Source of the DNA: an uncultured Veillonella sp.
GTDB lineage: Bacteria > Bacillota > Negativicutes > Veillonellales > Veillonellaceae
Length of the DNA: 10,199 nt
Direction: 5' to 3'
NCBI GenBank assembly: GCA_959608595.1
Contig: CAUHTB010000011.1
Location: 1-10,199 of the forward strand
The position numbers and the translations under genes were made by a program. Positions within the stretch are counted from its first letter, which is position 1; each line of letters opens with the position of its first letter. The notes beneath the pieces are model-generated. The model ran no database searches. It saw nothing but the letters and a program-made list of their open reading frames with translations, and was not told where the DNA came from. Below are positions 1 through 5,803 of this stretch, in pieces.

Positions 1-543
1 GGCTCTGTCGCTGTGGCGAAAGATGATTTAGTATTCAATACATCTTATACATACAACCGTGAAGGTACCCTCGTAGGTGAATATTCCAAAATGCACGGCT
101 TTAGCCCCGCTAAAGAAGACAAATACTTTGCTAGCGGCACTCATACTACACATTTCGAGCTAGACGGAATACCTTGCAGTACTGTCATCTGTTATGATAT
201 CCGTTTTCCTGAGCTCGTAAGAATGGCTGCATTGCCAGGCACAGAATTATTATTTGTGCCTGCTCAATGGCCTACGATGCGTTTACGTCATTGGCAAGTA
301 CTCAATGAAGTACGAGCCATAGAAAACCAACTCTTCGTCTGTGCCGTAAACGGCTGTGGTACAGTAGGTCGCGTTCAAAGTACAGGTCACTCTGCCGTCT
401 ATGATCCATGGGGTACCACCCTACTCGAAATGGACACTAACGAAGGCATTGCTTCCATAGACATCGACCTCGCTGTAGTCGAAGACATTCGTAACAAAAT
501 TAATATCTTTAGAGATCGCAAACCTGAACTCTACAACCTATAA
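1..543 (+). CDS. Carbon-nitrogen hydrolase, omega-amidase/Nit2-YafV type (5' truncated)
   Basis: This is a nitrilase-superfamily hydrolase that probably cleaves the amide of omega-amido acids such as alpha-ketoglutaramate in the cytoplasm. The frame is open from base 1, so the gene begins upstream. A GTG at 13 is internal: the residues before it (GSVAV) continue the family's strand ahead of the NTSY motif. The nitrilase triad is Glu-Lys-Cys. The Lys lies in EYSKMHGF (codon 88-90) and the nucleophilic Cys in VICYDIRFPEL (codon 190-192); the Glu must lie in the missing N-terminal part. WP..R..HW..L...RAIENQ and the C-terminal RKPELY are typical of the Nit2/YafV branch. The gene ends at TAA 541-543, followed at once by a terminator. 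The family assignment is secure. The exact substrate is inferred, because other branch members act on different amides. Confidence 0.9.
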   Translation, partial: GSVAVAKDDLVFNTSYTYNREGTLVGEYSKMHGFSPAKEDKYFASGTHTTHFELDGIPCSTVICYDIRFPELVRMAALPGTELLFVPAQWPTMRLRHWQVLNEVRAIENQLFVCAVNGCGTVGRVQSTGHSAVYDPWGTTLLEMDTNEGIASIDIDLAVVEDIRNKINIFRDRKPELYNL

Positions 544-559
544 CAAAAAATACATTATG

Positions 560-640
560 AAGGCACATTGTTTTAACTACCATCTTAAATAATACATATA
601 TAGATGGTCTGCGCATAAAACAATGTGCCTTTTATTTTTA
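560..640 (+). terminator. Nested hairpin terminator, possibly bidirectional
   Basis: A perfect 16-bp stem (560-575 with 616-631) encloses a second 7-bp stem (579-585 with 602-608). It is followed by a T-rich run, TTTATTTTTA, ending at 640. It lies between the convergent amidase gene and the toxin-antitoxin operon. On the other strand the stem is followed by a T-run (complement of the A-run 545-550), so it may stop both transcripts. Confidence 0.85.
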
Positions 641-697
641 TTGAGCTGTATGTAAGAAATAGATGACTCTAGTTTGTTCTGGATTAACGGCCATACT

Positions 698-910
698 TTA
701 AAACTCAATAAGTTTCCACATATCCTCTGGAACTTGTTCTAGAGCCTTATTCTTTGCCATAGCTTCTTTTAGAATATCAATCGTATCTTGTACTTCTTGT
801 TTATCCTTTGTATTTGGATCGTGAAGAACGACACGGTCCAAGGAGTCTGGTCCAAATTGTTTTAAATATTCTTTTTCCACTTGATTAAGTTCACGACGTA
901 AGTATTTCAT
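698..910 (-). CDS. Unrecognised 70-aa protein, third gene of a toxin-antitoxin operon
   Basis: I do not recognise this small, charged protein. It has no signal peptide or membrane segment. It is rich in Lys, Glu, Asp and Gln, and the pattern from about residue 40 (QEVQDTIDILKEAMAKNKAL) suggests helix. It starts ten bases after the toxin's stop codon. Its ribosome site, AGAGGA, overlaps that stop, so it is probably co-transcribed and translationally coupled to the toxin. No terminator is visible between the two genes. The nearest one downstream is the nested hairpin at 560-631. Position alone suggests an accessory role such as a chaperone, a second regulator or a passenger gene, and no motif decides among these. 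The ATG at 910 is the only start with a well-placed ribosome site. Confidence 0.7.
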   Translation of the reverse strand: MKYLRRELNQVEKEYLKQFGPDSLDRVVLHDPNTKDKQEVQDTIDILKEAMAKNKALEQVPEDMWKLIEF

Positions 911-920
911 AGTATATCCT

Positions 921-1187
921 CTATTTGTAAATATCTTTTCGGTGCCCCACTTCTAAGGCTAAAATAACACATCTACCGTCATTAATATCAGCTATCACTC
1001 TATAATTACCAATGCGATAACGCCAAAGCCCGGTCTTATTAGCTGTCAATGATTTTCCTGAATATCTAGGATTTTCTACATTATCTACGTTCTTGATAAG
1101 CCAATTAAAGAGATAACGTTGTGTTGATTTATCGAGCTTAGAAAATTGCTTGTCAAATCGTTTAGAGAACTCAAGTTTATAAGCCAT
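921..1187 (-). CDS. RelE/ParE-superfamily type II toxin
   Basis: This is an 88-aa toxin of the RelE/ParE fold, probably a ribosome-associated mRNA endonuclease that is neutralised by the antitoxin encoded just upstream. Family signatures seen are N-terminal KLEFSKRFDKQF, then GLWRYRIGNYRVI (residues 53-65) with Arg56/Arg58, and C-terminal LEVGHRKDIYK with His82, Arg83 and Tyr87, which correspond to the usual active-site region. The chosen start is ATG at 1187. A GTG in the same frame at 1196 would add three residues but is less likely. The ATG start overlaps the antitoxin gene by 11 bases (antitoxin stop 1177-1179), which is typical of coupled TA pairs. RelE (mRNA cleavage) is favoured over ParE (gyrase) by the GNYRVI and GHRKDIYK pattern, but this is not certain. 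Confidence 0.88.
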   Translation of the reverse strand: MAYKLEFSKRFDKQFSKLDKSTQRYLFNWLIKNVDNVENPRYSGKSLTANKTGLWRYRIGNYRVIADINDGRCVILALEVGHRKDIYK

Positions 1188-1398
1188 ATTTTGCACGCAT
1201 TTCCGCCACAGAATAAGTAACTGGATCTTGCTTATATTCTGCTAATGCTTTTTGACCTACCTTAAGATCAAATTCATCTTCAATCTTTTCTAGTAAAGCC
1301 TTCTTAAAGAGAGTAGAAAGTGTTTCATCCATAAACTCGGCATATGTTTTAAATAACTCTTCTTCTTGTTCATTTAAACGGACTGAAATATTTGCCAT
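1177..1398 (-). CDS. RelB-like (DUF6290-type) ribbon-helix-helix antitoxin
   Basis: This 73-aa antitoxin binds and blocks the neighbouring toxin and, with it, probably represses its own promoter. The N-terminus NISVRLNEQEEEL is a ribbon-helix-helix DNA-binding strand plus first helix. The middle, KKALLEKIEDEFDLK, is typical of RelB/DUF6290 antitoxins. The C-terminal tail (TYSVAEMRAKYGL) is the part that usually wraps the toxin. The start is ATG 1398, because AAGGAGG lies 8 bases upstream on the minus strand. An in-frame GTG at 1407 lies inside that ribosome site and is rejected. The promoter overlaps a perfect inverted repeat directly upstream, which is consistent with autoregulation. Confidence 0.88.
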   Translation of the reverse strand: MANISVRLNEQEEELFKTYAEFMDETLSTLFKKALLEKIEDEFDLKVGQKALAEYKQDPVTYSVAEMRAKYGL

Positions 1399-1406
1399 AT
1401 AAAGCA

Positions 1407-1441
1407 CCTCCTTATGTAATACATTGTATTACATAAGGAGG
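1407..1441 (-). promoter_or_regulatory. Perfect 17-bp inverted repeat: likely TA operator overlapping -10 and ribosome site
   Basis: The arms 1407-1423 and 1425-1441 are exact reverse complements around one central base (1424). The symmetry is 35 bp, far longer than expected by chance. Each arm ends in the AAGGAGG/CCTCCTT sequence, so the gene-proximal arm also supplies the antitoxin's Shine-Dalgarno. A candidate promoter reads TAGACT (1446-1451), 17-bp spacer, TACAAT (1423-1428), placing the -10 box at the centre of symmetry. This is what an RHH antitoxin autorepression site would look like. The binding itself is inferred. Confidence 0.75.
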
Positions 1442-1568
1442 TTTTAGTCTATTCCTTAAACTCACAAACAGCTGCATTTTAATAAAATTTTATATTTAAA
1501 AAATTAGAGAATAAAAATGATTTATGGATACATAATACTATAGATTTAATTACGCAAATTAGGCATAC

Positions 1569-1700
1569 AAAAAAGGCACACCACCCTTCTCTCGTCTCTC
1601 AGCGGCATGCCTTTTTATGTATATAGTTACTCTCGAACTATATCGTATGTCAGTCTGGCTAACTCTCTCTAAATCCCTTTAACGACACGCCAGTATGTCA
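1569..1700 (-). ncRNA. Putative small regulatory RNA (~130 nt), divergent from the antiporter gene
   Basis: No protein frame fits this stretch, yet it has all the parts of a stand-alone RNA gene on the minus strand. It has a near-consensus promoter just upstream (1706-1734), an 8-bp hairpin (1636-1643 with 1621-1628, 7-base loop), and a final hairpin. The last stem, about 16 pairs including GU wobbles, runs from 1616 to about 1601 and from about 1586 to 1570, and ends in six Ts (1569-1574). The predicted 5' end is about 1698-1701. GAGAG occurs four times: in the AG-rich linker (1663-1670), in the first hairpin loop (1630-1634) and twice in the terminator loop (1596-1600, 1589-1593). TGACATAC occurs twice in the 5' half. 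I do not recognise a known RNA class: it lacks the SRP, tmRNA, RNase P and T-box cores. It could instead be a leader for the TA operon, but that operon has its own promoter and the terminator intervenes. Confidence 0.6.
1570..1616 (-). terminator. Intrinsic terminator of the putative small RNA
   Basis: The arms AAAAAGGCA and TGCCTTTTT (minus-strand sense) pair exactly for 9 bp. The stem extends through GU wobbles and two more GC pairs to about 16 pairs, with a 14-base AG-rich loop. It is followed by a run of six Ts on the minus strand (1569-1574). The plus strand also carries five Ts (1612-1616) as part of the stem. Confidence 0.75.
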
Positions 1701-1705
1701 CCTTT

Positions 1706-1734
1706 AATATACAATTATAAAATAACTTTGTCAA
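1706..1734 (-). promoter_or_regulatory. Strong promoter of the putative small RNA
   Basis: On the minus strand this reads TTGACA (1729-1734, a perfect -35), a 17-bp spacer, and TATATT (1706-1711, 5 of 6 to the -10 consensus). It is the closest match to a sigma-70-type promoter in the window. The only thing it reads into before a terminator is the non-coding stretch 1569-1700. Confidence 0.75.
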
Positions 1735-1776
1735 TATTTTATAAAAATTTTATCTTTTTTATTTGCCAATAAATAC

Positions 1777-1805
1777 TTGCAAAAGATTTATATAAATTGT
1801 AATAT
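1777..1805 (+). promoter_or_regulatory. Candidate promoter of the antiporter gene
   Basis: TTGCAA (1777-1782), a 17-bp spacer and TAATAT (1800-1805) lie upstream of the antiporter gene. They give a leader of about 115 bases before the start codon. The -35 box is 42 bp from the -35 of the divergent small-RNA promoter, so one regulator could control both. A 7-bp inverted repeat (1839-1845 with 1870-1876) lies in the leader; no function can be assigned to it. The surrounding DNA is very AT-rich, so other -10 placements are possible. Confidence 0.55.
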
Positions 1806-1900
1806 TAATAAATTTTATGACATCAACGCTTAATTTACTACCATTAATCATTTACATAAATCGTCTATAAATGGTATTATTAGCAGTGCACTAGAATTTG

Positions 1901-1925
1901 GTTATTATGAAAGAAAGGTAATAAC
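1901..1925 (+). promoter_or_regulatory. Hairpin presenting the Shine-Dalgarno of the antiporter gene in its loop
   Basis: GTTATTA (1901-1907) and TAATAAC (1919-1925) are exact reverse complements. The 11-base loop (1908-1918) is TGAAAGAAAGG and contains the ribosome site. The start codon follows one base later. The stem is AT-rich and weak, so it may be incidental. Confidence 0.4.
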
Positions 1926-1926
1926 T

Positions 1927-3300
1927 ATGTTTTCATTTCTACAACCAAAAGAGGCAAAACCATCGGTTCCACAGAATATGATTATGAATTTATATTACAA
2001 ATATAGATTTCAATCTCTAGCCGGTATATTTATTGGTTACGCTGCGTACTATATCGTTCGTAACAACTTTGCCTTATCAACTCATTTTTTATCAGATATC
2101 TTACACATGAGCAAAACGGAAATCGGTTTGCTATCTAGTGGTATGCTTATCGCCTACGGTCTAAGTAAAGGCTTCATGAGTAGTCTTGCTGACAAAGCTA
2201 GCCCTGCAAAATTTATGGCTTTCGGTCTTATTTGCTGTGCAATAATCAATATTTTTATGAGCTTTGCCGACAGCCTCGCTTTCTTCTTAGTATTAGTAGT
2301 TCTTAATGGTTTCTTCCAAGGCTTTGGTGTAGGCCCATCCTTCATCACACTTGCTAAATGGTATCCAAAACAAGAACGTGGTCGCTTCGGGGCAATTTGG
2401 AATATCTCCCATAATCTTGGTGGCGGTATCGTAGCACCAATCGTAGCTGCTGCGTTATACTTCACCACTACTGATCACTGGCAATTAGGCAGCTATGGTA
2501 TTCCTGCAATTATTGCGATTGTAGTAGCTATTATTATTTGCTTCTTGATTAAAGAAAGTCCAGAACGAGAAGGCTTACCACCAACTAGTGAAATCATTGC
2601 CGATACAGCTCATAAAGCACATAGAAGTGCAGAAGCACCTCACCTAAGCACAAGACAAATTTTTGTACAATATGTATTAAAAAATAAAAATGCTTGGTAT
2701 GTGTCTCTAGTTGATACATTCGTTTACATGATTCGTTTCGGTATGCTTACATGGTTGCCTATTTACTTATTACAAGTAAAAGGCTTCTCTAAAGCAGAAA
2801 TGTCCATCGCATTCTTATTCTTCGAATGGGCAGCCATTCCTTCTACAATTTTTGCAGGTTATATTTCCGATAAATTCTTTAAAGGTTATCGTATGCCACC
2901 AGCAATCATTGCAGTAAGTATTATCTTCTTCTGTATCTTTGGCTATTGGCAAAGTGAATCCCTATTATGGGTTACATTCTTTGCTGCTGTCGTAGGTTGC
3001 TTAATCTACATTCCTCAATTCTTAGCATCTGTACAAACTATGGATATTGTACCTCCATTCGCTGTAGGCTCTGCCGTTGGTCTTCGCGGCTTCATGAGTT
3101 ACATCGTCGGTGCCAACCTTGGTACAACACTATTCGGTGTATTAGCAGATAAATTTGGTTGGAATGCAGGTTTCTACCTCTTATTAGTAGCATGTGTTCT
3201 TTGTGTTACATTCTGTGTACTTGCACATTTTGGAGCAAAAGAATTAGATGCTAAAGAAGCAGAACTTGAACAATTACAACCAGCTGAAGCAAACAGCTAA
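1927..3300 (+). CDS. pgtP: Organophosphate:phosphate antiporter, PgtP/GlpT family
   Basis: This 457-aa, 12-helix inner-membrane transporter of the major facilitator superfamily (OPA family) exchanges a phosphorylated three-carbon compound for inorganic phosphate. Family marks are GYAAYYIVRNNFALS with Arg45, GVGPSFITLAKWYPKQERGR, WNISHNLGGGIVAPIV with His162, and VYMIRFGMLTWLPIYLL with Arg270. Arg45, His162 and Arg270 match the phosphate-binding Arg45, His165 and Arg269 of E. coli GlpT. Recalled Salmonella PgtP (phosphoglycerate) resembles it more closely than GlpT over long stretches, for example FFEWAAIPST and FLASVQTMDIVPPFAVGSAVGLRGFMSYI, so PgtP is preferred. Glycerol-3-phosphate remains possible. 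Residues about 211-243 form the long central cytoplasmic loop. The length is normal. The ribosome site AGAAAGG lies 8 bases before the ATG. No pgtABC-type regulators adjoin it; a putative small RNA is divergent. Confidence 0.9.
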   Translation: MFSFLQPKEAKPSVPQNMIMNLYYKYRFQSLAGIFIGYAAYYIVRNNFALSTHFLSDILHMSKTEIGLLSSGMLIAYGLSKGFMSSLADKASPAKFMAFGLICCAIINIFMSFADSLAFFLVLVVLNGFFQGFGVGPSFITLAKWYPKQERGRFGAIWNISHNLGGGIVAPIVAAALYFTTTDHWQLGSYGIPAIIAIVVAIIICFLIKESPEREGLPPTSEIIADTAHKAHRSAEAPHLSTRQIFVQYVLKNKNAWYVSLVDTFVYMIRFGMLTWLPIYLLQVKGFSKAEMSIAFLFFEWAAIPSTIFAGYISDKFFKGYRMPPAIIAVSIIFFCIFGYWQSESLLWVTFFAAVVGCLIYIPQFLASVQTMDIVPPFAVGSAVGLRGFMSYIVGANLGTTLFGVLADKFGWNAGFYLLLVACVLCVTFCVLAHFGAKELDAKEAELEQLQPAEANS

Positions 3301-3322
3301 CAACTAAATTCTAGAGCAAACC

Positions 3323-3359
3323 AAAAGGTAGCAACATATATTGTTGCTACCTTTTATTT
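3323..3359. terminator. Bidirectional terminator, copy 1 of an identical 37-bp element
   Basis: A 14-bp perfect stem (3323-3336 with 3342-3355) with a 5-base loop TATAT is flanked by T-rich sequence on both strands. It sits between the end of the antiporter gene and the stop codon of the convergent DUF4178-like gene; that stop, 3354-3356, lies inside the element. The same 37 bases occur again at 3963-3999. Confidence 0.88.
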
Positions 3360-3875
3360 ATTCTTAAAGAAATTTGCCAAAAACCAAATAATTGGCCCTA
3401 TGAATCTCACCTTCTTAACAGTATCCATTTTATCTAGAATAGGCTTAGTTATCTCTGCATTGCTTTCAAGCAACACATATTTTTTATCAACATAAACACC
3501 TTTGGAATACTCTGTCATATGAACCCGCTTTTCAATAGTAAGTATATGAGTACCATTATCATCTTCATACTCTTCATAACGAGAGAAAGCACCAATATCT
3601 ATATCCATATCTATATCCCCTCTTGTACCTATTGCCATCTGATAACTTCGATGAACTACGTTCATATCAGATGGTATTACTTTGCCACATAACTTTGTAA
3701 ACTGATATACATCATGTTTTTCATTCCAACTGATCCAAAACTCAGCATTATTCTTATGTTTAACCAACTTATACTTATACCAAATTTTCCTATGAGTATC
3801 AATGTAACGAATTTTGCCTAGGATCGTATATAACTCATTTCGGATACGCAATGTATCACCATAGTTAAATTTCAT
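3354..3875 (-). CDS. DUF4178-like protein with hydrophobic C-terminal tail
   Basis: This 173-aa protein has unknown function. The N-terminal region (GDTLRIRNELYTILGKIRYID...WYKYKLVKHKNNAEFWISWNE) has the pattern of DUF4178 domains: a beta-rich 'vigrirY..W.eyxL....g...WLs' motif. The last 20 residues contain a short hydrophobic stretch (VRFIGPIIWFLANFF) before basic FKNK, so it may be tail-anchored in the membrane. There is no signal peptide. A short acidic repeat, DIDMDIDI (about residues 88-95), is encoded by two copies of a 12-bp unit at 3595-3618. The ribosome site is weak (GAGAGTG, four bases before the ATG). Its own promoter lies at 3921-3949, and the stop codon lies inside the terminator. 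The DUF assignment is by eye and moderate. Confidence 0.72.
   Translation of the reverse strand: MKFNYGDTLRIRNELYTILGKIRYIDTHRKIWYKYKLVKHKNNAEFWISWNEKHDVYQFTKLCGKVIPSDMNVVHRSYQMAIGTRGDIDMDIDIGAFSRYEEYEDDNGTHILTIEKRVHMTEYSKGVYVDKKYVLLESNAEITKPILDKMDTVKKVRFIGPIIWFLANFFKNK
3595..3618. repeat. Tandem 12-bp repeat inside the DUF4178-like gene
   Basis: ATATCTATATCC occurs twice in tandem, which can also be read as four near-identical hexamers. It encodes the Asp/Ile run. Gain or loss of one hexamer or 12-mer would keep the reading frame, so it would vary length and not switch the gene off. Confidence 0.7.
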
Positions 3876-3920
3876 AAAACACTCTCATTCTCAAAACAAT
3901 TTAAATTATTAATTACTATG

Positions 3921-3949
3921 ATTGTACATATAATATGAAATTCTGCCAA
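3921..3949 (-). promoter_or_regulatory. Promoter of the DUF4178-like gene
   Basis: On the minus strand this reads TTGGCA (3944-3949), a 17-bp spacer, and TACAAT (3921-3926). Both boxes match 5 of 6 bases of consensus. The leader before the ATG at 3875 is about 40 bases. Confidence 0.65.
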
Positions 3950-3962
3950 TATGGATATAGTA

Positions 3963-3999
3963 AAAAGGTAGCAACATATATTGTTGCTACCTTTTATTT
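3963..3999 (-). terminator. Terminator of the secreted-protein gene, copy 2 of the 37-bp element
   Basis: All 37 bases are identical to 3323-3359, with the same 14-bp stem and TATAT loop. It lies 6 bases after the stop codon of the 482-residue gene. The flanks of the two copies are not alike apart from AT-richness, so the shared unit is the terminator alone. Confidence 0.88.
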
Positions 4000-4005
4000 T
4001 TACAA

Positions 4006-5454
4006 TCAACCTTGTTGGCAGAAATAAATGATATAGTTACTATCTGGACTGACTGCAGCACCTAAAGAATAGGGATGATTCCAACTGCCACCAAAATCAA
4101 ATACATATAATACATAATTATCAGGTATTTCTACTGAATCTTCATTATATGACAATCTATGCAAATATTGTTGCTGAAGCTTTCGATTTTCTTTTTCAGT
4201 ATAAGTTGGATACACTTTATCTTTGGCACGCTTATTTTCATAATCTTGTTTAGGCTTTAATGCATCTCGCGCATCTTCTATTCGTTTACGAGTTTCAAAA
4301 TATCTCTTATACTTTGCACTTTTGTCTTCATCTGCAATCTGTACCTTATTAAATTCTGCTAGCACTTGATTTTCTAACTCATATATTTCATCTACAAATT
4401 TATCAATTGGATGGTCTTGTCGCTCTTGTATAAATTTACCCATCGGCACAGTTGTATTCTTTACAGTCAGTATCGACCTTGGGATTAATGCAGATAGGGA
4501 ATCTGCATAGTCCATCTTCGAATCAATAAATTGTTTAACATACACATGGGATAAATCAGATTTTAAAATAACCACTTTAGAGTTAGAACGTGCTTCATCA
4601 ATATATGGCTTTAATTGTTCCGGTGTACCTCCAAATGTAAGTTGTACGTAAGCCCTGCCTTGAAAAAAACTTGGATTACTATGCATATGAATATTTTTTG
4701 CAAAACCAGGTATTTTCTTTGGGAAACCAGGAATCATAGGCATCATTTTATAATCTTTGGGATTATTGATAGGATACTCAATTAATTCTATAGGTTTCAA
4801 AAGGCTCTCTAGTGACTCTTTTATTTCCTGTTTAGAGCGAACGGTAAATAAATCATGCCCTTTATTTTGATCTAAATACTCTCGAATTGCCTTTTCATTT
4901 GCTTTATCCCGATCAGCACGCGTCCTATAATCTTTAGTATTAATGGGATTTGTTAGCTTAATCTCTCCTTGACCATTCTTTTTCATATATGGGCTCACGA
5001 TGCGTAAAGGTTTTTCTCGACCACCAATAAAATAACCTTGATTACGTGTTGATTCAGTATTATAGTTTTTAATTTCTTTTAGTGCTTGTTCATCCTTATC
5101 ATTATAAAGTGGATCAAACGTTTTGTATTCACTACCAAAATCAGTTTTTTCTGATATTTTTAATCGCTGAGAAGCGTGCTCCTTCTCCTTCCGTTCTAAT
5201 GTAATTTCATCTTCAATTGAAAGCTTTTTTGGATTTATAGATTTATCCCTTATAACAGCTTTAAAAGCACCAGGAATAATCTCAATAAAATCTAATTTCA
5301 CAGGAGCTTTAGTTTGTACAGGCTGATTTGACTTTGCATTATTTTTCAGTTCAGCACTGGTATTGGGGTTTACTCCGTCCACTGTTGCCGCTAAACTAAA
5401 CTGACTAGATAATGCTAGTGAAAGCAGCATCAATACAAAATATTTTTTATTCAT
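4006..5454 (-). CDS. Secreted protein of unknown function (482 aa)
   Basis: I do not recognise a family. Residues 1-22 are a classical Sec signal peptide (basic MNKK, hydrophobic core, cleavage near SLA-ATVDG), so it is exported to the periplasm or beyond. The mature part is very hydrophilic and Lys/Glu/Asp-rich. A likely helical or coiled-coil stretch runs from about residue 350 to 435, where Glu, Lys, Arg and Leu dominate. A Pro/Gly/Met-rich segment (MMPMIPGFPKKIPGF) lies near the middle. The C-terminal 45 residues turn beta- and aromatic-rich (DNYVLYVFDFGGSWNHPY...YIIYFCQQG), with a Cys four residues from the end. The ribosome site AGGAG precedes the ATG by six bases. A possible extended -10, TGCTATAAC (5488-5496), lies just after the tRNA terminator, so it may have its own promoter or use read-through from the tRNAs. 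Confidence 0.85.
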   Translation of the reverse strand: MNKKYFVLMLLSLALSSQFSLAATVDGVNPNTSAELKNNAKSNQPVQTKAPVKLDFIEIIPGAFKAVIRDKSINPKKLSIEDEITLERKEKEHASQRLKISEKTDFGSEYKTFDPLYNDKDEQALKEIKNYNTESTRNQGYFIGGREKPLRIVSPYMKKNGQGEIKLTNPINTKDYRTRADRDKANEKAIREYLDQNKGHDLFTVRSKQEIKESLESLLKPIELIEYPINNPKDYKMMPMIPGFPKKIPGFAKNIHMHSNPSFFQGRAYVQLTFGGTPEQLKPYIDEARSNSKVVILKSDLSHVYVKQFIDSKMDYADSLSALIPRSILTVKNTTVPMGKFIQERQDHPIDKFVDEIYELENQVLAEFNKVQIADEDKSAKYKRYFETRKRIEDARDALKPKQDYENKRAKDKVYPTYTEKENRKLQQQYLHRLSYNEDSVEIPDNYVLYVFDFGGSWNHPYSLGAAVSPDSNYIIYFCQQG

Positions 5455-5532: not shown

Positions 5533-5618
5533 TGGTGCGGTTGGAGGGACTTGAACCCTCACGAGCGTACGCTCACCACCCCCTCAAGATGGCGTGTCTG
5601 CCATTCCACCACAACCGC
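5533..5618 (-). tRNA. tRNA-Leu, anticodon GAG, CCA encoded
   Basis: An 86-nt class II tRNA. Acceptor GCGGTTG pairs with CAACCGC, followed by A and an encoded CCA. The anticodon stem CCATC/GGTGG encloses loop TTGAGGG, giving anticodon GAG, which reads CUU/CUC. A long variable arm containing GAGCGTACGCTC identifies leucine, and the T arm is GAGGG-TTCAAGT-CCCTC. Confidence 0.96.
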
Positions 5619-5630
5619 ATGGAATACAAA

Positions 5631-5706
<76 letters not shown>

Positions 5707-5727
5707 ACGTTTTTTTGTAAAAAAAAA

Positions 5728-5803
5728 TGGCGACCCCGATCAGATTTGAACTGACGATCTTCGCCGTGACAGGGCGACATGTTAACCGCTACACCACGGG
5801 GCC
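5728..5803 (-). tRNA. tRNA-Asp, anticodon GTC, CCA encoded
   Basis: A 76-nt cloverleaf. Acceptor GGCCCCG pairs with CGGGGTC (one GU), with discriminator G, as expected for aspartate, plus CCA. The anticodon loop CTGTCAC gives anticodon GTC. It is the first gene of the operon. The 21-bp spacer to tRNA-Phe is mostly runs of A and T. Confidence 0.96.

Follow-up and report, generated by a model that had tools for sequence, protein, structure and literature searches.

A candidate lineage-restricted small RNA gene with conserved GAGAG motifs in Veillonella

Veillonella is an abundant commensal of the mouth and gut. We analysed a 10,199-nt stretch of DNA from an uncultured Veillonella species (the window), in which an interval between protein-coding genes carries a short motif, GAGAG, several times on the minus strand. 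Is this interval a gene, and with what could its product interact? The first-pass annotation had taken it for an unannotated small RNA gene that acts either as an antisense RNA with several seeds or as a sponge for an RNA-binding protein. Our best explanation, to which we give a probability of about 0.45, is a new, lineage-restricted, stand-alone small RNA (sRNA) gene of Veillonella whose product would act in trans, by Hfq-independent pairing with few partner RNAs.

The predicted transcription unit and its distribution

The features of the unit are given below by window position. "Copies" are the window sequence and those of six carrier genomes; the window's own genome is not among the 14 genus genomes that were searched.

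1734-1706, minus strand: sigma-70-type promoter, TTGACA-17-TATATT, 11 of 12 consensus matches; -35 box kept in all seven copies
1699-1567, minus strand: predicted small RNA of about 133 nt, a conserved alignment; 162 bits in the window with covariance model R1, which was built from seven sequences, the window's own among them
1699-1684, minus strand: 5' element GACATACTGGCGTGTC, invariant in all seven copies
1669-1663, minus strand: linker GAGAGAG, in which two GAGAG overlap; all seven copies have one or more GAGAG in the linker
1659-1655, minus strand: GCCAG, which may pair with CTGGC at 1693-1689 and is part of the invariant AGCCAGA island
1643-1621, minus strand: predicted A/U-rich hairpin with an invariant 6-bp stem and the loop UUCGAGAGUAA; GAGAG at 1634-1630
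1614-1572, minus strand: intrinsic terminator stem of 13 bp (1614-1602 with 1584-1572); both sides changed at three of 13 pairs, with pairing retained
1574-1569, minus strand: terminator run of six T, kept in all seven copies

The -35 box (1734-1729) and the -10 box (1711-1706) had been described as a near-consensus promoter reading leftward, and this held: the site scored highest of ten promoter-like sites in 1200-2100. Shuffles of the same region contain a mean of 5.4 such sites, so the promoter site alone is weak evidence. In the two most distant copies the -10 box reads TAAAAT at the same 17-nt spacing, as read from the alignment. The putative start is G1699 (the G of GACATACTGG), and the transcript would end after the T run. 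The earlier size of about 130 nt is thereby corrected to about 133 nt, and the small RNA-like unit itself stands. The hairpin and the intrinsic terminator with its six-T run were found as described; the 5' element GACATACTGGCGTGTC and its possible partner GCCAG had been missed.

The stretch was also correctly taken as noncoding. It has no open reading frame of at least 60 aa in 1407-1927, and no short frame (at least six codons from ATG, GTG or TTG) is common to all seven copies, on which ground a hidden peptide was rejected. A GTG frame of 9-12 codons occurs in five of the seven copies, with changing residues.

A scan of the whole window with Rfam 15 returned three tRNAs only. Between 1440 and 1930, up to E = 5, the single match (1797-1856, a snoRNA model) does not touch the element and falls well short of the gathering score of that model. 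Membership of a known RNA class was therefore rejected, in agreement with the first reading, at both the gathering and the permissive threshold. Among the matches listed in the literature search, no title describes a Veillonella sRNA of this kind or a trans-acting Veillonella sRNA (preprints and most subscription papers were outside its scope). Novelty is claimed on the basis of Rfam and these listed titles. The three tRNA genes lie in tandem on the minus strand (5536-5803), near a 482-aa gene and an inverse-autotransporter-type gene; the latter is 64-93% identical between carriers in full-length matches.

By blastn, the element occurs in six of the 14 genus genomes, once in each at E 0.01 and with 78-99% identity. 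The carriers are V. infantium (G001), V. sp. T11011-6 (G002), V. rogosae (G004), G008, G010 and G015. Neither blastn nor the covariance model found it in the other eight, and no credible second copy was seen in the carriers. Strong R1 matches in the genus were likewise confined to six of 14 genomes, the many further matches all scoring 36 bits or less; in the family, six of 28 genomes matched at E 0.01. At class level, 300 genomes drawn evenly from a larger group were searched under stricter filters; 11 matched at E 0.1, namely the six carriers and five weak matches of 23-32 bits. Eleven weak matches examined as alignments fit the model mainly on the terminator, and none of them keeps the full 5' 16-mer or four GAGAG. 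In G015, another sRNA-like unit (L083, 1501-1611), A/T-rich and with a strong terminator, scores 35.9 bits with R1 and has no GAGAG.

Plasmids and phages gave no match in a distant blastn search at E 0.01. None of 17 viral stretches with an exact core word matched the model at E 1, and the flanks of the single viral 16-mer match appear unrelated by eye. A mobile-element RNA was rejected on these results. The best reading of the distribution is a lineage-restricted RNA family of Veillonella.

Predicted structure and the conserved motifs

The segment 1700-1560 folds at -41.8 kcal/mol (z = -3.63), a value reached by none of 200 shuffles. The terminator loop has 17 nt in the drawn structure and 15 nt in the minimum-energy fold. 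A terminator scan of the region allows loops of up to 8 nt, so this terminator is missing from its output because its loop is longer.

Alignment of relatives had been proposed as a check on the stems, and it supported the terminator, in which 98.7% of cells are paired and the changes at three pairs preserve pairing. For the whole structure, three of five measures exceeded all 500 shuffles: the covariation score (0.205 versus 0.137), the number of cells changed on both sides (6 versus 2.3) and the share of cells that pair (99.4%). The other two were not above shuffles, namely pairs with a both-sided change (3 versus 1.9, reached by 137 of 500) and further pair types (10 versus 10.1, reached by 364 of 500). 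The alignment holds seven sequences, three of them about 99% alike. Since it is the two most distant copies that account for the both-sided changes, these may represent few events.

The remaining helices are invariant. All nine pairs of the two 5' helices are unchanged in the seven copies, as are the six stem pairs of the A/U-rich hairpin and the 15-mer GATATAGTTCGAGAG (1644-1630); the 3' side of the hairpin loop varies. Because these helices never vary, covariation neither supports nor contradicts them, and on this part of the proposed check the alignment is silent. As a model, the 5' element may fold into a hairpin (GACA/UGUC stem) with the loop CUGGC, and this loop may pair with GCCAG to give an H-type pseudoknot; alternatively, the element may be an exposed seed. 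When the 5' 16-mer is shuffled, about 5% of trials still yield 5 nt that match the island.

The four places given earlier for GAGAG were confirmed. The motif starts at 1669 in the linker, 1634 in the hairpin loop, and 1600 and 1593 in the terminator loop (1600-1596 and 1593-1589), and an overlapping fifth copy starts at 1667. Only 14 of 20,000 dinucleotide shuffles reach four non-overlapping GAGAG. Since 1.6% of shuffles repeat some 5-mer or other four times, repetition taken by itself is only moderately unusual. The alignment provides the stronger argument, which is conservation: GAGAG is present at all four places in all seven sequences. The linker around it varies, with insertions and deletions. 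In the terminator loop, the core GAGAGA-Y-GAGAGA is kept in every copy and the remaining positions vary. In the window sequence, the linker GAGAG is predicted to be partly unpaired and the loop copies largely unpaired.

Overall, the blocks kept in all seven copies are GACATACTGGCGTGTC, AGCCAGA, GATATAGTTCGAGAG, GAGAGA-Y-GAGAGA, a linker GAGAG and the T run, and they persist although background identity falls to 78%. The reading as an unannotated small RNA gene is thus supported by the lack of an Rfam match, the presence in six of 14 genomes, the kept promoter and loop motifs, and the three terminator pair changes.

Neighbouring genes and cis-acting alternatives

In the window, the RNA lies between a DUF6290/ParE-type toxin-antitoxin pair (minus strand, 1407-921) and a divergent MFS gene (1927-3300) whose protein is 99% identical to an MFS protein of V. 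infantium. Loci were compared in the region beside a nitrilase gene in 12 genomes and the window; G007 (no nitrilase match) and G011 (nitrilase at 59% identity) were left out. The RNA occupies one syntenic site in the six carriers and the window. The gene before its 5' end is the divergent MFS gene in the window, G002 and G010, pstB of a pstSCAB operon in G001 and G004, with about 90 nt between, and a gene of the 482-aa type in G008 and G015. With upstream neighbours that differ between species, the RNA behaves like an independent gene, and a trans mode of action is probable. The pstSCAB operon lies directly upstream of the RNA in V. infantium (L113, 4335-7715) and V. rogosae (L112, 6280-9660); within the stretches compared, the RNA locus of the window and of the four remaining carriers lacks it.

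The RNA is absent from the locus in the six non-carrier genomes examined, V. parvula SKV38 among them. This would make it dispensable to the genus, and the short distance to pstB in two species means that pst transcripts could end there, as expected if the element had no function as an RNA and were either a relic promoter with its terminator or the place where an upstream operon ends. We consider this highly improbable, because the modules are invariant and the stem changes both-sided at 78% identity, the promoter is kept and the upstream gene is not constant. The carriers do not form one clade in a tree of the nitrilase gene alone, which includes a partial window sequence: the V. parvula group (G003, G012, G013), which has no RNA, falls among them, with support of 0.96 for the larger group and 0.61 within it. 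Loss in the V. parvula group fits this tree weakly better than recent gain would.

Downstream, the toxin-antitoxin pair is present at six of the seven carrier loci, G008 having the RNA without the pair, and at none of six examined loci without the RNA. RNA and pair may therefore have been gained or lost together, G008 excepted. The next downstream gene differs in two of the seven copies (G008 and G015). In G015, a 288-aa frame (L110, 9128-9991), adhesin-like and by reading of the trimeric autotransporter type, lies between the RNA and the pair; G008 retains only a 25-residue match to it (L108, 11580-11654).

This arrangement raises the alternative of a cis-acting attenuator, in which the 5' GGCGUGUC would pair with the 5' arm of the terminator and control read-through into the downstream gene, usually the DUF6290/ParE pair. 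Such pairing (8-9 pairs with at most one mismatch) is possible in all seven copies and is reached by 1.1% of shuffled 5' segments, and the pair is downstream in six copies, in G015 beyond the adhesin-like frame. The alternative helix is nonetheless weaker than the terminator in every copy (weakest in V. rogosae, -4.8 versus -19.2 kcal/mol), the next gene is not constant, and the toxin-antitoxin pair comes with a palindrome and a promoter-like site of its own. Attenuation is quite unlikely on this balance.

The palindrome at 1406-1442 is perfect, with 17 bp and a 3-nt loop (ACCTCCTTATGTAATACA...), and it overlaps the ribosome-binding region of the DUF6290/ParE-type pair; judged by sequence, it is probably the autoregulatory operator of the pair. 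A megablast of window positions 1-5000 against a phage collection gave one match only, of 43 bp at 93%, at 1393-1435 (bajarodino virus 18, PQ006180.1).

Possible partners and comparison with known systems

RNA-binding proteins are one class of possible partner. Hfq and CsrA were each found in none of the 14 genus genomes (the window's own not among them), with five and three control genomes positive, respectively. TRAP, which binds spaced GAG or UAG, was likewise found in none of the 14, with one positive control (B. subtilis). Distal-face binding of AG repeats by Hfq, titration of CsrA and binding by TRAP were rejected on these counts. The earlier proposal of a protein sponge thereby loses its two best-known candidate partners, Hfq and CsrA, and TRAP as well, and another partner, or one of the KH type (KhpA/KhpB), is possible. 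All nine genomes searched encode KH proteins that match KhpA (82 aa) and KhpB (265-277 aa) in size; the names follow from Pfam family and size.

A protein-titrating RNA, whose GAGAG repeats bind KhpA/KhpB or an unrecognised protein, would explain why one motif is kept in the linker and two loops of all seven copies while the terminator stem changes. It would also agree with the KH proteins and with the lack of enrichment of terminator-loop complements described below. Against it stand the missing Hfq, CsrA and TRAP, the occurrence of Khp-type proteins in three searched genomes without the RNA, and the KhpA literature, which gives no sequence motif in the parts available. To our knowledge, no protein binds GAGAG in such bacteria, which also counts against titration. 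We regard this reading as doubtful but tenable. A Csr/Rsm-like titration RNA in a genus without detectable CsrA or Hfq, with GAGAG in the linker and both loops as the site of a new (or KhpA/KhpB-type) global regulator, is a more specific and unlikely form of it; if true, it would lead to a new post-transcriptional system in Negativicutes.

Complementary RNAs are the other class. The terminator-loop segment (13-mer, at most two mismatches, both strands, own gene counted, sums over genomes) has 222 complementary sites in the six carriers versus 223 for its reversed control, and 127 versus 104 in three genomes without the RNA. Complements of the 5' element (at most three mismatches, own gene counted) number 34 versus 38. 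As neither exceeds its control, broad antisense action through a GAGAG seed gains no support. The terminator-loop counts in the carriers do not support the proposed multi-seed antisense RNA with CUCUC targets, and the target prediction suggested for the GAGAG seed, made here with that segment, gave no excess over the reversed control.

Twelve of 30 terminator-loop target loci were inspected. Certain sites are shared by different species, in one case including G012, which has no RNA, and some CU-rich matches are, by reading, the opposite strand of ribosome-binding regions. A site GAGAGATGAGAG is conserved in G010, G001 and G012 (L154, L155 and L147, around 1501); it may lie before a short frame, a candidate leader peptide. 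Duplex energies, which ignore internal structure, revealed no clear pairing of the RNA with the leaders of eight neighbouring genes. The leaders of the DUF2939 gene (-21.3 versus -16.0 shuffled, sd 3.1) and of the inverse autotransporter gene (-30.5 versus -24.7 shuffled, sd 3.8) deviate by less than 2 sd and are not counted as signals.

The likeness of GAGAG-type runs to purine-rich ribosome-binding regions, of which some CU-rich matches are the opposite strand, suggests that Shine-Dalgarno-like GAGAG loops could mimic mRNA leaders and titrate an sRNA with a CU-rich seed. Such a sponge would fit an RNA in which several copies are predicted to be accessible. It leaves the invariant 5' 16-mer unexplained, however, and we hold it to be unlikely, though we count it, with protein titration, among the serious rivals.

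We return to the preferred reading, a stand-alone sRNA that pairs with few partners. In its favour are conservation, promoter and terminator sequences, a predicted structure with some compensatory change, and changing neighbours; against it are the eight of 14 genus genomes without the RNA, complements that are not enriched, and the two covariation measures at shuffle level. At the sequence level, the RNA has its own promoter and intrinsic terminator between genes, is noncoding with no frame common to the copies, and is not tied to one neighbour, and together these features indicate a trans-acting sRNA. We infer that the unit is transcribed and that it acts in trans, by base pairing with whatever targets it has.

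In the proposed mechanism, RNA polymerase would start at about 1699 and stop at the terminator (1572-1569), giving a 133-nt RNA whose 3' end would be protected by the terminator hairpin. This hairpin, the upstream hairpin and the 5' fold would display the invariant modules. The contact sites would be the 5' 16-mer or its loop, together with GAGAG in the linker and loops, and the RNA would base-pair with a small number of mRNAs or other sRNAs without Hfq. The 5' element would be the main seed, and the purine-rich GAGAG loops would provide further contacts. Because Hfq and CsrA were found in none of the 14 Veillonella genomes, a conserved sRNA that carries an invariant, repeated motif could be a bait for what replaces such proteins. 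If GAGAG is a protein site, a new regulator would be defined; if it pairs with RNA, multi-site sRNA action without Hfq would be demonstrated.

Known regulatory RNAs resemble the Veillonella RNA in part. CsrB, RsmY and RsmZ are RNAs of short to medium length, each ending in its own terminator, that present one short motif several times in linkers and hairpin loops. Their motif is GGA, and the GGA loops of CsrB and RsmZ RNAs bind CsrA, whereas the Veillonella motif is GAGAG, CsrA was found in none of the 14 genomes, and no Rfam match relates the RNAs. LhrC of Listeria, a Firmicutes relative, also exposes several copies of one short motif and has its own promoter and terminator. In LhrC, CU-rich motifs pair with ribosome-binding sites, whereas the Veillonella motif is purine-rich and itself resembles a ribosome-binding site; Rfam scanning gave no sequence relation to LhrC. 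Hfq-binding sRNAs of Gram-positive bacteria are similar in that purine-alternating stretches resemble the (A-L)n rule given for the Gram-positive Hfq distal-face site in the accessible part of PMC10628458, but Hfq was found in none of the 14 genus genomes, with the five controls positive.

Within Veillonella, the parts consulted of PMC7160235 and PMC8632094 mention riboswitches, a putative antisense RNA and cis motifs (ilvD, potE, gltD), and PMC8632094 states that its own method is not well suited to sRNAs. The ilvD and potE motifs, as given in those parts of PMC8632094, are likewise structured candidates restricted to Veillonella (potE also occurs in environmental samples) with little covariation. 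They are always or almost always found before one gene, ilvD or potE, whereas the Veillonella GAGAG RNA has its own terminator and differing neighbours.
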